A stretch of 64,000 bases of DNA from Prochlorothrix hollandica PCC 9006 = CALU 1027 (lineage in GTDB: Bacteria; Cyanobacteriota; Cyanobacteriia; Prochlorotrichales; Prochlorotrichaceae), in the NCBI RefSeq assembly GCF_000332315.1, contig NZ_KB235933.1, positions 1,303,041 to 1,367,040 on the forward strand. The letters are read 5' to 3'. The notes beneath the pieces are model-generated. The model worked only from the letters and a program-made list of their open reading frames with translations, ran no database searches and was not told the origin of the DNA. The position numbers and the translations under genes are program-made. This document shows, piece by piece, positions 39,101 to 45,767 of this stretch (positions within the stretch are counted from its first letter, which is position 1; each line of letters begins with the position of its first letter).

Positions 39101-39114
39101 TTTGCCGTTAGGGA

Positions 39115-39357
39115 CTGGGGCGATCGCCCAAAACTCTGGGTATTGCCAGGTTTCTCGTTGGGTTTCGTACCTCTACCCAACCTACGGGATGAAAAACCTC
39201 GAAACCGTAGGTTGGGTTGAGCTGCCCAAGACCCCAGGCACACCGCCCCGACCTACCGGGCGAAACCCAACAGGGGACTGGGGCGATCGCCCAAAACTCT
39301 GCGTCTTGCCAGGTTTCTCGTTGGGTTTCGTACTTCAACCCAACCTGCAAGGCTACG
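39115..39357. repeat. Dispersed repeat R3
   Basis: Long form with three GTAGGTTGGGT-type arms. It contains CGATCGCCCAAAACTCTG twice and GTTGGGTTTCGTAC twice. Begins 15 bp after the ftsH stop. Confidence 0.65.
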
Positions 39358-39746: not shown

Positions 39747-39978
39747 GGGTCTAGCCTTACCTCGTCTGATGATTGCTGGTGATGAATATAGTAAGGATTT
39801 CCGTAATTTTAGTTTTTAAGTGTGTATTATACGATAATTTGATTTAAGCCTGTATCCCCAGGCCATTTAAAATCACCCAAACTGACCCTGCACCTGGAAG
39901 CAATCTCCACAAATTCGGCTGCTTCACCGATACTCGATTTTTACGAGACTGTCTCGGTCTCCTACCCGTAAGGTGCTT

Positions 39979-42900
39979 ATGTCTAAATTATCCCTACCCT
40001 CCGGAGATCAGCCATCGGATTCCCCACTGCCCGCCAACAGTTTTTTAGTGGGCATTGGGGCATCAGCGGGAGGGCTACAAGCCCTGACAGAATTTTGTCA
40101 GAACCTGACGGCGGAACCCGGTGCCTGTTTTGTCATTGTGCAGCACCTGTCCCCCGACTTCCGCAGTTTGATGGTGGAACTGTTGCAGCGCCACACCTCC
40201 CTGCCGGTGAGCATCGTGGAAGATGGCATGGCCCTGGCTGTCAATCAGATCTATGTGCTGCCTCCTGGATTATTGGTGCGCCTGAGAGGCACCCATCTGT
40301 TTTGCGAGGAACGCCCGGGCAACAGCACCGACTACCCCATTGATGTTTTTTTTAATAGCTTGGCCCAGGAACGCAGCGATCGCACCATTGGCATCTTGCT
40401 GTCGGGGACGGGCCATGATGGCACCGAAGGCTTGAAAGCCATCAGCCGATCGGGGGGCATTGCCCTGGTGCAATCCATGCAAACGGCCCAGTTCGGAGCC
40501 ATGCCCAACAGCCCCATTAGTTCGGGCTTGGTGGATGAAATTCTGTCCCCCGCCGAACTCGCCCAATCGGTGTGCGACATGATTCGCTATACCGCCAGCC
40601 GCGCCCACCTGGGGAACGAGGGGGAAAATTTACTCAGCCCGGATCAACTACTGCGGATTCTGACGGTGCTGCACCACCAGGAAAATTTGGATTTTTCCCA
40701 ATATAAACCGGGTACCCTCCACCGGCGCATTGTGCCCCGGTTACTGCTGTCCAAGTCCGAGACCGTCGAGGACTACATTACCTATCTCAGCAAAACACCC
40801 AGCGAAAGCAAAGCACTACGCCAAGATTTATTGATTGGGGCCACCCGCTTCTTCCGGGATTCAGAGATGTGGTCCCAGTTACAAACCACGGTGCTGCCGG
40901 CCATTATTCAAACCTTGCAACCGGAACAACCCCTGCGGCTGTGGGTGGCGGCCTGTTCCACGGGGGAGGAAGCCTATACCTTGGCCATGGCGGTGGATGA
41001 GGTGATGGAGAAATTGAAGCGATCGAACCCGGTCAAACTATTTGCCACGGATGTGGATGCCGAAGCCTTGATCATCGCCGCCCAGGGGGTCTATGGATCC
41101 AATATGGTGCGGGATCTGGGGGAAGAACGCCTCGATCGCTACTTCAATCTTGAAGGCACCAACACCTACCGCATTAAAAAATTTATCCGCTCCCAAATTA
41201 TTTTTGCGTCCCATGACTTGACCCAACATCCCGGCTTCTCCCAAATGCACCTGGTCAGTTGCCGCAATGTCTTGATTTACATGCAACCCCCCCTCCAGGA
41301 ACGGGTGCTGAATTTACTGCACTTTTCCCTGGCCCCCCATGGATTGCTGATTCTGGGTTCTGCGGAACATGTGGGAGCCTTGGACTATGCCTTTCAGTGC
41401 ACGGATCAACACTGGAAATTTTACCGGAAGCGACCCGACATTAAGCTGCCCGTCAGCCATCTGACCCGATCGCCCATCATACCCTCCATCCCCTTCAACC
41501 GACCAAACCAAGGGGGCCAGTCCCCCTACGATCGCCTGCTGGCCTCCATCCTCGGTCTCCGGTTTGGGGAGAACCCCACCACCTGCCTCTTGGTGAACCC
41601 CACCAACCAGGCCATCCATGTCTTTCTGAACACGGCCCGTCTCTTGGAATTTCCCCTAGGGGAAATCAACTTTAATGTTTTAGATATTGTCTTGCCCTCC
41701 CTCAAGCTACCCCTGGGGACGGCCCTGCACCGGGTGCGGGAAGACAATATTCCGGTGCTCTATAAAAACGTGGAGGTTACCGAAGCCAATCCCTCCTATC
41801 ACATCGATCTTTGGGTGGGTCCATCGGGCCAAAATACAGCCTTTGATCAGCCGTTGATTGTCTTGATGGAAATGGCGGTGTCCCGGTCAACCACCATTGG
41901 TATCCAGGAAAGTGAGTTTAATCCCGACTCTGCCATTGCGCAACATGTGCGGGAATTGGAGTTTGAGTTACAGCAAATTCGGAGCAATCTCCAAAACAGC
42001 ATTGAAGAGCTGGAAGCCGCCAACGAGGAACAGCAGGCCACCAATGAAGAACTGTTGGCCGCCAACGAAGAACTGCAAAGCACCAACGAAGAACTGCAAT
42101 CCGTTAACGAAGAACTCTATAGCGTTAATACCGAAAACCAAGAACGCATCGAACAACTGATCGAACTCACTTCCGACATTGATAACCTGTTGCGCAGTAC
42201 GGACATCGGGGTTATTTTCCTGGATCAGGATTTGAACCTGCGCAAGTTCACCCCAGCGGCAGCGCGGGTCTTTAATTTCCGGGTGGGGGATATGGGCCGA
42301 CCCCTGACGGAGTTGGTCAACCACCTCAGTATCACCCATTTAACCACCTTAATTGAGCAGGTGGCCCAGACCCATGAATCCATCGATACGGAAGCCACCA
42401 ACACGATCACGGGCGATCGCCTGTTGTTGCGGGTGTTGCCCTACCGCCGGGAAGATGGGGCGATCGATGGGGTGGTGCTGACCCTGATCACCATCAACGA
42501 CCTCAAAGACACCCAGGATGCCCTGTCCCAAAGCAATGCCCTCCTGGAGGATCTGTACCACAACAGCCCCGTGGGCCTGTGTTTGCTGGATCGGAATCTG
42601 CGTTTCCTCAAGGTCAACCCCACCTTAGCCGCCATGACGGGCCTGACCCTAGCCGAGCACCTGGGCTGCAGACCCCAGGATATCTGGTCTTCCATCAGCG
42701 CCACCATTAGCCCCTACCTGGGCCAGGTGCTGTCCCTGGGGGAAGCCATTACCAACATTGAAGTCACCAGTACAGAACCCAGCAGTCAGGCTCAGCGGGT
42801 TTGGTTAACCTCCTACTATCCCGTCACCTTGGCCGATGAACAACGGGGCGTGGGGGCGATCATCACCGACATCAGCGAACAAAAACGCATCCAGCGGGAA

Positions 42901-45396
42901 CTGGAAGCCAGTCAAGCCCTGGTGCAGCAAATTACCGAATCTAGCCCCGCGATTCTCTCCCTGTCTGCCATTGACACCGGCGTAACGTCCTACATCAACC
43001 GGTCTGTGGAAACCATCCTGGGCTATAGCCCTGAGGAGATTTACCAAGGAGAGGGCAATTTCTTAGTGCGGTTGGCCTACCCCGACGATCGCGATCGCAT
43101 CCTGGCCCACCTCACCACCTTGGCCCAGTCCTCCCCTAACCAAATGCTGGAGCTAGAGTACCGGGTTCGCCACAAAGACAGATCTTGGCGCTGGCTCTAT
43201 CAACGCACCACCCTCTTCCAGCAACACCCCGACCAAGACCACCCCCAAGTTTTGGGGCTGGGGACCGACATCACCGAACAGATCAAAGTGCGGGAGTCCC
43301 TCCAACAAAATGAACTGCTGCTGCGCACCACCCTCAACCACACCCCCATTATTCTCTTTACCCAAGATCTAGATCTGCACTACACCTGGGTTCATCATCC
43401 CTTCCCCGGCTTCAGCCTGGAGGCGATGCTGGGCCACTCCGATCAGGATCTCTTCCCCCCCAACGCCGCCAGCGACTTCATTGCTGCCAAACAGCGGGTG
43501 CTCGACTCCGGGGAAACCCAGACCCATGAGTTTGTCCTCAACACCCCCGATTACCCCTGCTTCTTTGAGTTCACCCTCGCGTCCCAAAGCAATGAACGGG
43601 GGCAGATCATCGGGTTGGCGGGGGTGGGCATCGACATCACGGAATCCCGGCGCAATGCCAACCAACTGCTGAAAATTACCCAACGGCTGGAAGAAGCCCA
43701 ACGCATTGCCCACCTCGGCGATTGGGAATTTGACTTCAGCACCAACACCACCCTCTGGTCCCCGGAACTGTTCCAGATCACCGGCTTTGATCCCACCCTA
43801 GCCACCCCCAGCGTCCCCGACGTGTTGAGCATTATCCATAGGGACGATCTGCCCCTGCTCTTGAGTTTGGTCAACCAGCGCCCGCAGCAACAGGAAGCGG
43901 TGGATGTGGATGTGCGCATTTATCCCCAGGGCAGCACCAGCGTGCGCCATGTCAATATTCTGGGCAAGGTCATCCGCAATGGCATTGGCAATATCACGAA
44001 GCTCTATGGCACCGTGATGGACATTACGGAACGCCAGCGCAACCAGGAGAACCTGCAACACCAAGCCTTTTTTGATAGCTTAACGGGACTGCCCAACCGG
44101 GGCTTTTTCCTGGAGCATCTCAAACTGGCCCGGGGGCGAGCCAGCCGGGATCTGTCCTACCAGTTCGCCGTGCTCTATGTGGATGTGGATAATTTCAAGG
44201 CGATCAATGACGGCCATGGCCATGGCATGGGGGATTCCCTGTTGATCCAGATCGCCCAACGCCTCGATCGCATGATGCGTCCCGGTGACATTGTGGCCCG
44301 CATTGGGGGGGATGAGTTTGCCATTTTGCTGGAGCAGATCTATCACCCAGAAATGGCTTTGGAGGTGGCCTGTCGCCTCCAGTCGGCGATCGCGGCCCCC
44401 CTCAGCCTGGACAATCAGCCCATCCAGGCCAGCCTGAGTATCGGCATTGCCTCCTATCTGTCGGCGGATGGGGCACAGGATGACATCACCCTGCTGGAAA
44501 ATGCCGACATTGCCATGTACCAAGCCAAGCGACGGGGTACCGGCAACTGCGAGCTGTTCCATTCCTCCATGCGGACAGCCAATGACAACCAAGCGGAACT
44601 GAAGGGAGGGCTGCTGCAAGCCCTGGAACAGGAGGAATTTGAGTTATATTACCAACCGATTATCCAGATCCAACAGCAAACCTTAATGGGCTTTGAGGTG
44701 CTGGTGCGGTGGCAACATCCCCAACGGGGGTTACTGGGTGCCCCCAGTTTCTTGCCCATTGTCACCGCTGCCCATCTGATGCCCGCCTTGGAAAGCTGGA
44801 TTCTCAAGCAAGCGTGCCATCAATGGCGACAATGGTCGTCGGAATTCAAACTAGATCCCAATTTTCGCATTTCCATCAATATTTCCTTAAATTTACTCAA
44901 GCATTCGTCGTTTATTAATAACTTACGGTTAGCCCTCAGCCATGCTGGCATCACCAAACCCCATCACATCTGCCTAGAACTGACGGAAGAATCATTAATA
45001 AACTATGGGGATCATGTGGATACCCTGTTGAAAACCCTGAAAAAGCTCAATATCAGCCTTGCTTTAGATGACTTTGGCACCGGTTACTCGTCCCTGTCCT
45101 ACTTGCACCGTCTACCTCTGAGTCACATTAAGTTGGATCAAGGCTGGGTGCAGGAGTTGCCCAACCAACCGACTCACCAAAATCTGACCGTCGGCATCAT
45201 CAGTTTGGCCCGCCAACTCAATTTAACGGTGATTGCTAAGGGCATTGAAACCTTGGAACAACTGCGCCTGATCCAGGAGTCGGGCTGTGATTTGGGCCAA
45301 GGCTATTATTTCTATCCCCCCCTCAGTGCCCTGGATGCTAAGCGCCTCTTGCGAGATCCCCAGGCGATCGCCCAAAAATTTCTGACCCCAAGTTAG
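39979..45396 (+). CDS. CheB-CheR-PAS-GGDEF-EAL fusion protein
   Basis: This is an 1805-aa multidomain signalling protein. CheB methylesterase (about 20-200) keeps Ser (GIGASAGG), His (IVQHLSPDF) and Asp (GTGHDGTEG). CheR methyltransferase (about 215-485) has ATRFFRDSEMW and VAACSTGEEAYTLAMAV. A coiled coil follows (654-727, repeated AxNEEL units), then about five PAS domains (730-1353), GGDEF (motif intact at 1443-1447, ARIGGDEFAI) and EAL (1545-1800). The EAL signature is EVL (1573-1575) and the catalytic Glu of AEGVET is Lys1754 (IAKGIET). Net diguanylate cyclase activity is therefore more likely than phosphodiesterase activity. CheB lacks a receiver domain. ATG 39979 is chosen over GTG 39973. 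Confidence 0.92.
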   Translation: MSKLSLPSGDQPSDSPLPANSFLVGIGASAGGLQALTEFCQNLTAEPGACFVIVQHLSPDFRSLMVELLQRHTSLPVSIVEDGMALAVNQIYVLPPGLLVRLRGTHLFCEERPGNSTDYPIDVFFNSLAQERSDRTIGILLSGTGHDGTEGLKAISRSGGIALVQSMQTAQFGAMPNSPISSGLVDEILSPAELAQSVCDMIRYTASRAHLGNEGENLLSPDQLLRILTVLHHQENLDFSQYKPGTLHRRIVPRLLLSKSETVEDYITYLSKTPSESKALRQDLLIGATRFFRDSEMWSQLQTTVLPAIIQTLQPEQPLRLWVAACSTGEEAYTLAMAVDEVMEKLKRSNPVKLFATDVDAEALIIAAQGVYGSNMVRDLGEERLDRYFNLEGTNTYRIKKFIRSQIIFASHDLTQHPGFSQMHLVSCRNVLIYMQPPLQERVLNLLHFSLAPHGLLILGSAEHVGALDYAFQCTDQHWKFYRKRPDIKLPVSHLTRSPIIPSIPFNRPNQGGQSPYDRLLASILGLRFGENPTTCLLVNPTNQAIHVFLNTARLLEFPLGEINFNVLDIVLPSLKLPLGTALHRVREDNIPVLYKNVEVTEANPSYHIDLWVGPSGQNTAFDQPLIVLMEMAVSRSTTIGIQESEFNPDSAIAQHVRELEFELQQIRSNLQNSIEELEAANEEQQATNEELLAANEELQSTNEELQSVNEELYSVNTENQERIEQLIELTSDIDNLLRSTDIGVIFLDQDLNLRKFTPAAARVFNFRVGDMGRPLTELVNHLSITHLTTLIEQVAQTHESIDTEATNTITGDRLLLRVLPYRREDGAIDGVVLTLITINDLKDTQDALSQSNALLEDLYHNSPVGLCLLDRNLRFLKVNPTLAAMTGLTLAEHLGCRPQDIWSSISATISPYLGQVLSLGEAITNIEVTSTEPSSQAQRVWLTSYYPVTLADEQRGVGAIITDISEQKRIQRELEASQALVQQITESSPAILSLSAIDTGVTSYINRSVETILGYSPEEIYQGEGNFLVRLAYPDDRDRILAHLTTLAQSSPNQMLELEYRVRHKDRSWRWLYQRTTLFQQHPDQDHPQVLGLGTDITEQIKVRESLQQNELLLRTTLNHTPIILFTQDLDLHYTWVHHPFPGFSLEAMLGHSDQDLFPPNAASDFIAAKQRVLDSGETQTHEFVLNTPDYPCFFEFTLASQSNERGQIIGLAGVGIDITESRRNANQLLKITQRLEEAQRIAHLGDWEFDFSTNTTLWSPELFQITGFDPTLATPSVPDVLSIIHRDDLPLLLSLVNQRPQQQEAVDVDVRIYPQGSTSVRHVNILGKVIRNGIGNITKLYGTVMDITERQRNQENLQHQAFFDSLTGLPNRGFFLEHLKLARGRASRDLSYQFAVLYVDVDNFKAINDGHGHGMGDSLLIQIAQRLDRMMRPGDIVARIGGDEFAILLEQIYHPEMALEVACRLQSAIAAPLSLDNQPIQASLSIGIASYLSADGAQDDITLLENADIAMYQAKRRGTGNCELFHSSMRTANDNQAELKGGLLQALEQEEFELYYQPIIQIQQQTLMGFEVLVRWQHPQRGLLGAPSFLPIVTAAHLMPALESWILKQACHQWRQWSSEFKLDPNFRISINISLNLLKHSSFINNLRLALSHAGITKPHHICLELTEESLINYGDHVDTLLKTLKKLNISLALDDFGTGYSSLSYLHRLPLSHIKLDQGWVQELPNQPTHQNLTVGIISLARQLNLTVIAKGIETLEQLRLIQESGCDLGQGYYFYPPLSALDAKRLLRDPQAIAQKFLTPS

Positions 45397-45402
45397 TCGT
45401 AG

Positions 45403-45725
45403 TCGTAGGTTGGGTTGAGCTTGCTGCCATATTTGGATGATTGCCAAAACTTACGGGGCGAAACCCAACACAACATTTTGGTAAGGGTGCCTTATGGAGT
45501 TGCATCCCTCACGTTTTGCCAGGTCCCTTGTTGGGTTTCGTTCCTCTACCCAACCTACACGATGAAAAACCTCGCAACCGTAGGTTGGGTTGAGCTGCCC
45601 AAGACCCCAGACACACCGCCCCAACCTAACGGGCGAAACCCAACGGGCCAGGGGGAGATCGCCCAAACCTCTAGGTATTGCCAGGTTCCTTGTTGGGTTT
45701 CGTTCCTCTACCCAACCTACAATCG
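45403..45725. repeat. Dispersed repeat R4
   Basis: Long form directly after the giant sensor stop, with four GTAGGTTGGGT/ACCCAACCTAC arms and GGGCGAAACCCAAC. Similar to R3 and R5. Confidence 0.65.
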
Positions 45726-45767
45726 CTCACATTTTGTAAGGGTGCCTTGTGGGGTTGCGGCCCTGAC

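Follow-up and report, generated by a model that had tools for sequence, protein, structure and literature searches.

A lysine at a conserved glutamate position in the EAL domain of a cyanobacterial CheB-CheR-GGDEF-EAL protein, and its recurrence in other cyanobacterial EAL domains

We found that the EAL domain of a CheB-CheR-PAS-GGDEF-EAL protein encoded in the window (the whole 64,000-nucleotide stretch of DNA that was analysed) carries Lys at the position of E352 of RocR. We favor, with some reserve, the reading that this domain no longer hydrolyzes c-di-GMP and serves as a c-di-GMP receptor or regulatory module beside a probably active GGDEF domain. Loss of hydrolysis itself is quite probable, by analogy with published mutants. 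The same Lys is found in other cyanobacterial EAL domains, and a recurrent Lys that marks receptor-like EAL domains would be a more interesting outcome than the window protein alone.

The protein is encoded by an open reading frame at 39973..45396 (1807 aa) on the forward strand, as are all features of the window protein given below. The start codon is GTG; an in-frame ATG at 39979 would give two residues fewer. Pfam places a CheB methylesterase domain at 40048..40569 (PF01339, E 1.7e-50, residues 26-199; also aligned to PDB entries) and CheR_N and CheR methyltransferase domains at 40648..41418 (residues 226-274 and 291-482). The CheR region, with its CheR_N and SAM-binding domains, matches CheR proteins of the PDB down to E 1.3e-31. 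In the gap between CheR and the PAS domains is a repetitive EELxxxNEE coil at 42004..42162 (seen in the sequence, its end approximate and set by eye). It is followed at 42178..44022 (end approximate) by a Pfam PAS_10 match (residues 736-841) and then PAS_4 and PAS_3 repeats, probably about five PAS units in the 1807-aa protein. The Pfam GGDEF domain is at 44065..44541 (residues 1365-1523) and the EAL domain at 44611..45321 (PF00563, E 2.4e-70, residues 1547-1783). As originally described, CheB keeps its catalytic triad and has no receiver domain: Ser31, His58 and Asp149 align with the catalytic Ser, His and Asp of CheB in the PDB (which we take to be S164/H190/D286 in reference numbering), and a Pfam scan of the 1807-aa protein found no receiver domain before CheB.

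The near neighbors that were scanned encode FtsH upstream and a DnaJ-domain protein, ferrochelatase and uroporphyrinogen decarboxylase downstream; therefore no chemotaxis cluster adjoins the gene. The genome (5.65 Mb, 13 contigs) has 15 EAL, 22 GGDEF, 8 MCP-signal, 2 CheR and 2 CheB matches. The E352 position was read in these 15 EAL matches minus L095, L102, L103 and L104. The second CheR belongs to a 546-aa protein with a C-terminal part that resembles TPR by eye, and the second CheB sits in a frame of 372 aa; the window protein is thus an additional methylation module and not the sole one. Partial or stop-holding GGDEF or EAL matches elsewhere in the genome (G000:C3:31979-32446, G000:C4:165920-167422 and G000:C9:816680-816853) suggest broken c-di-GMP genes. 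Repeats flank the gene. Upstream is a 73-nt direct repeat of 95% identity (39111-39346) with the words GGTTGGGTT and GCGATCGCCC, and the same words occur in 25-47-nt repeats in the downstream flank (45397-45767).

The altered residue is Lys1756, encoded by AAG at 45238..45240. In alignments to solved EAL domains it falls on the Glu that opens the E-G-(V/I)-E motif of TBD1265, MorA and MucR. The original prediction had noted an EVL signature at 44695, Lys for Glu 20 residues ahead of the conserved Gln and a single base as the cause, and these observations were confirmed; the orthologue from Cyanothece SIO2G6 has GAG where the window has AAG. The other residues tested are kept: E175, R179, N233, E265, E268, D295, D296, K316, D318, E355 and Q372 (RocR numbering). 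These include the candidate c-di-GMP contacts R179, D295 and Q372, and the first-metal ligands are all kept. Loop 6, DFG(T/A)GYSS, is intact (DDFGTGYSSLSY), with Asp1699-Asp1700 (D295 and D296) at 45067..45072 in an unbroken DDFGTGYSSL. Among the features that mark a catalytic phosphodiesterase, the domain has the fold, the Pfam match, the first-metal ligands, K316, Q372 and loop 6, and lacks the Glu at E352. An AlphaFold model of the domain has a mean pLDDT of 93.2. Its nearest solved fold is TBD1265 with c-di-GMP (TM 0.94, 37% identity), and Lys1756 lies at the end of the strand formed by model residues 214-218.

The EVL signature (GAG GTG CTG, 44695..44703; Glu1575 = RocR E175) had been read as a second sign of degeneration. 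It is not one. The Nodosilinea orthologue combines EVL with Glu at the E352 position, a second orthologue (G011) has ECL, and an enzyme with an ESL signature is reported to work as a phosphodiesterase (PMC10874727). Thus the proposal of a degenerate EAL domain survives in its Lys part, for which published Ala mutants that lost hydrolysis offer an analogy, and fails in its EVL part.

We found that the Lys arose on the lineage of the window. Among 388 genomes searched from the class, with no other genome of the window's order, 29 had matches at E 1e-180 or better (the window's own counted). The full CheB-CheR-PAS-GGDEF-EAL chain was present in only 3 genomes besides the window's, at 54-60% identity: G011 (L010), Nodosilinea sp. 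LEGE 07298 (L039, L105) and Cyanothece sp. SIO2G6 (L011, L106). A search of genome contigs with the PAS block kept 80 loci (identities 49%, 40% and, for the remainder, at most 35%), among which L105 and L106, both already found, were the only full-length orthologues. The Lys is not fixed among orthologues, a point that the original prediction had left to an alignment: none of the three full-length orthologues has it (0/3) and all carry Glu, as does a related shorter chain (L053). The EAL domains of the window and the three orthologues form one group (SH-aLRT 99; quick tree of 81 EAL domains). Glu in all three orthologues, together with this grouping, therefore places the change on the window's lineage, and the Lys is derived and so far private to it.

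The domain as a whole shows no sign of faster decay. In four-way orthologue alignments, the EAL domain had 20 window-only differences against 93 invariant columns, and the other four blocks had 113 against 460. By this comparison the EAL domain does not outpace the remainder of the protein (P 0.70, Fisher test). The window-only changes are clustered, however. Nine of the 20 fall in residues 1716-1735 (45118..45177), among 14 positions there shared by the three orthologues (P 0.00175 by permutation over shared positions, an optimistic value since the 20-residue width was picked after viewing the list of changes). No comparable cluster was found in the other three orthologue lineages. In the AlphaFold model this stretch comprises the strand with K316, the turn with D318 and the helices that follow. 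Since the domain is not evolving faster and its model is confident, it appears to have been retained, and the change is local and next to the altered site.

The same Lys turned up in further EAL domains of cyanobacteria. When the 388 genomes were searched with a DNA pattern that encodes A-K-G-(V/I/M)-E and, at the expected spacing, Q-G-(Y/F), there were 26 hits, spread over 25 genomes. After removal of L080, which is interrupted by a stop, 25 Lys-type domains remained, namely the window's own and 24 others; the Lys is thus no unique oddity of the window. The Glu version of the pattern matched in 320 of the 388 genomes, and in the first 59 genomes it matched 364 places (summed by hand) against 2 for Lys. 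A survey of codons that do not start with G, judged by eye, gave EAL-like places with Lys (25), Thr (7), Asn (6), Met (5), Gln (4), Leu (2) and Ser (1); the remaining listed places were judged chance matches. With Ala, Gly or Val at the position, 8 of 10 places in 309 genomes were EAL-like, and Asp lay outside the survey. As read from these sequences, Lys is the commonest replacement of the Glu, although a single clade accounts for 12 of the 25 domains and G-to-A mutations arise easily. On a quick tree with long branches, the Lys state changed at least 3 times on well-supported branches and 8 times on the best tree. All nine of the other Lys-type chains that were scanned for domains (9/9) are GGDEF-EAL proteins, some with receiver, PAS or FHA domains.

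Most Lys-type domains have lost more than the Glu. Of the 24 others, 22 retain the complete set of four first-metal ligands; the exceptions are L082, which is cut short, and L064, which has E265D. Asp is present at D296 in 11 of the 24, at D318 in 7 and at both in 3 (L070 and the identical L086 and L087). At least one of the two was lost in 21 of the 24 others, in contrast to none of 30 Glu-type control domains, which were taken by pattern from the class and all keep D296 and D318. With the first-metal set kept and D296 or D318 lost, Lys-type domains thus retain one half of the metal centre. Loop 6 (DFGTGYSS) is broken in 22 of the 24 and intact only in L086 and L087. The Lys-type counts are inflated by relatedness, and the loop alignment is unsure in the most divergent clade. 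A test by independent pairs found 3 supported pairs for Lys and loss of D296 or D318, too few for significance, so the association rests on counts in related sequences. By these residues, the window EAL domain is at the mild end of the Lys-type range. L086 and L087, from two genomes of one genus, have Lys at the E352 position and all else intact, and a domain scan of L086 gave receiver-GGDEF-EAL. In sequence, these two are the nearest parallel to the window protein.

The 12-member Lys clade has a different architecture, with a family-2 glycosyltransferase ahead of the EAL domain in 11 of the 11 chains scanned (L082 left out). Two of these fusions, at L227:4368-6152 (reverse strand) and L228:4402-6216 (forward strand), match NCBIfam HpsE with 422.8 and 414.7 bits for the full chains (cut-off 300). 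The clade that joins a glycosyltransferase to a Lys-type EAL domain with a broken loop 6 also takes in L072-L079, L083, L084 and L089. The HpsE-EAL fusion looks like a c-di-GMP-sensing polysaccharide enzyme, and on a polysaccharide glycosyltransferase a binding role for the EAL domain would be more natural than turnover.

The GGDEF half of the window protein had been called complete. This held for the signature (from 44305), for the metal and transition-state residues and for the I-site: equivalents of D327, K332, N335 and K442 are present (PleD numbering placed by motif; residue roles as given in PMC12943098), and the RxxD I-site is RPGD (44278), five residues ahead of GGDEF. It did not hold for the basic substrate contact R446, whose position is Thr1523 (44539-44541) in the window, Pro in all three orthologues, and Lys or Arg in most other GGDEF-EAL proteins compared. 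From its residues the domain is likely an active cyclase, less certainly so than first stated. Because cyclase activity is predicted only and the R446 contact is missing, the claim that the protein is a net c-di-GMP producer is one that we infer to be plausible.

Published structures and mutants suggest how the Lys could act. In PA3825, the first metal is held by Glu39, Asn98, Asp130 and Asp160, and the second-site Mg by Asp161 and Asp183; Glu217 contacts the second metal when Ca is bound but not in the Mg complex (PMC5301497). By motif order, Asp161, Asp183 and Glu217 would correspond to D296, D318 and E352. The E703A mutation of TBD1265 is reported to abolish activity, and the second Glu of the motif to be of no consequence (PMC12943098). 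The E536A mutation of ZMO1055 is reported to remove phosphodiesterase activity, with signs of increased or unmasked cyclase activity (PMC12900916). We propose that the window EAL domain is folded and that it very probably still binds c-di-GMP, with a single divalent metal in the first site. Hydrolysis would be lost because Lys1756 has taken the position of the glutamate needed for the second metal and for the attacking water, and its positive side chain probably occupies the place of that metal. The adjoining GGDEF domain probably makes c-di-GMP under I-site feedback. The EAL domain would then be a c-di-GMP-occupied regulatory module or a dimerization switch, the PAS domains would set the output, and CheB and CheR on the same chain would link that output to receptor methylation, a coupling in cis that is plausible. 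A regulatory EAL domain fits the intact predicted fold and the undiminished constraint.

Several points count against this reading. D296 and D318 are intact and a residual second-metal site may persist, because the second Mg of PA3825 is described as held by the Asp pair and not by the Glu (PMC5301497). The published mutants have Ala where the window has Lys, and the GGDEF domain is without the R446 contact. The analogy with the Lys class is loose because the class is mostly more degenerate (loop broken in 22 of 24).

One alternative is that the EAL domain is inactive, does not bind c-di-GMP and has a purely structural part, in positioning or repressing the GGDEF domain. The private changes do cluster at a strand and helix beside the active site, and the dimer-interface helices are reported to govern active-site geometry in known EAL structures (PMC5301497). 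We consider this reading unlikely, since no other ligand or substrate residue among those tested has changed and constraint on the domain is normal. Less probable still is that the domain hydrolyzes c-di-GMP, slowly or upon a PAS signal, and that just D296 and D318 hold its second metal. The intact Asp pair and DDFGTGYSSL loop are compatible with this, as is the contact of the PA3825 Glu with the second metal in the Ca complex only; against it, Ala at the E352 position is reported as inactive in both TBD1265 and ZMO1055, and Lys would put a positive charge into a cation site. That the Lys is a sequencing or assembly error, or that the gene is drifting toward loss, is very improbable: a single-base change and Glu in all three orthologues, which the original prediction had coupled to sequencing error, are what an error would give, but the frame is open over 1807 codons, the EAL domain is not faster-evolving, nine other private changes lie in residues 1716-1735 and the Lys recurs in 24 other domains.

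If the window EAL domain is indeed a hydrolysis-dead receptor or regulatory module, it may belong to a wider class. More tentatively, Lys at the E352 position could be a recurrent and convergent mark of cyanobacterial one-metal c-di-GMP receptors, in which an ammonium group takes the place of the second catalytic metal and the first-metal site and pocket stay; the window protein would be a first step and the HpsE fusions an end state. The implied order of steps is Lys first, then D296, D318 and the loop. The usual sign of a receptor EAL domain is that its catalytic residues have been lost wholesale. Should a single lysine be enough, a simple mark in the sequence could sort many EAL proteins into breakers and sensors. 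In the window protein, receptor methylation enzymes and predicted c-di-GMP synthesis on one chain would couple the two systems directly. In Pseudomonas, chemotaxis methylation and c-di-GMP are reported to be joined by the adaptor MapZ, acting on CheR1 (PMC7288161). A literature search that covered few subscription papers found no report of Lys at the E352 position or of a CheB-CheR-GGDEF-EAL protein.

The window protein resembles several known systems in part. The GGDEF-EAL phosphodiesterases TBD1265, MorA, PA0575 and MucR share with it the fold, the EAL ligands, loop 6 and the tandem arrangement; the window protein differs in having Lys for the E352-type Glu and CheB-CheR in front. Its N-terminal part (CheB, CheR, coil and PAS) is shared with cyanobacterial CheB-CheR fusion proteins, most of which, among those examined, have no GGDEF-EAL in the stretch covered. 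A wide family commonly begins with CheB and CheR and no receiver domain; what is rarer is therefore the fusion to GGDEF-EAL. The other cyanobacterial Lys-type EAL domains share the Lys and the first-metal ligands, but in most of them D296, D318 and the loop are gone. The LapD and FimX EAL domains bind c-di-GMP without cutting it, which is the role suggested for the window EAL domain. However, FimX is described as being without the DDFGTG motif (PMC5301497), whereas the window domain has this motif intact and all first-metal ligands. By analogy, the window EAL domain may be a natural counterpart of the E536A laboratory mutant of ZMO1055, a PAS-GGDEF-EAL protein (PMC12900916), from which it differs in having Lys rather than Ala, in its natural occurrence and in the co-changes nearby.
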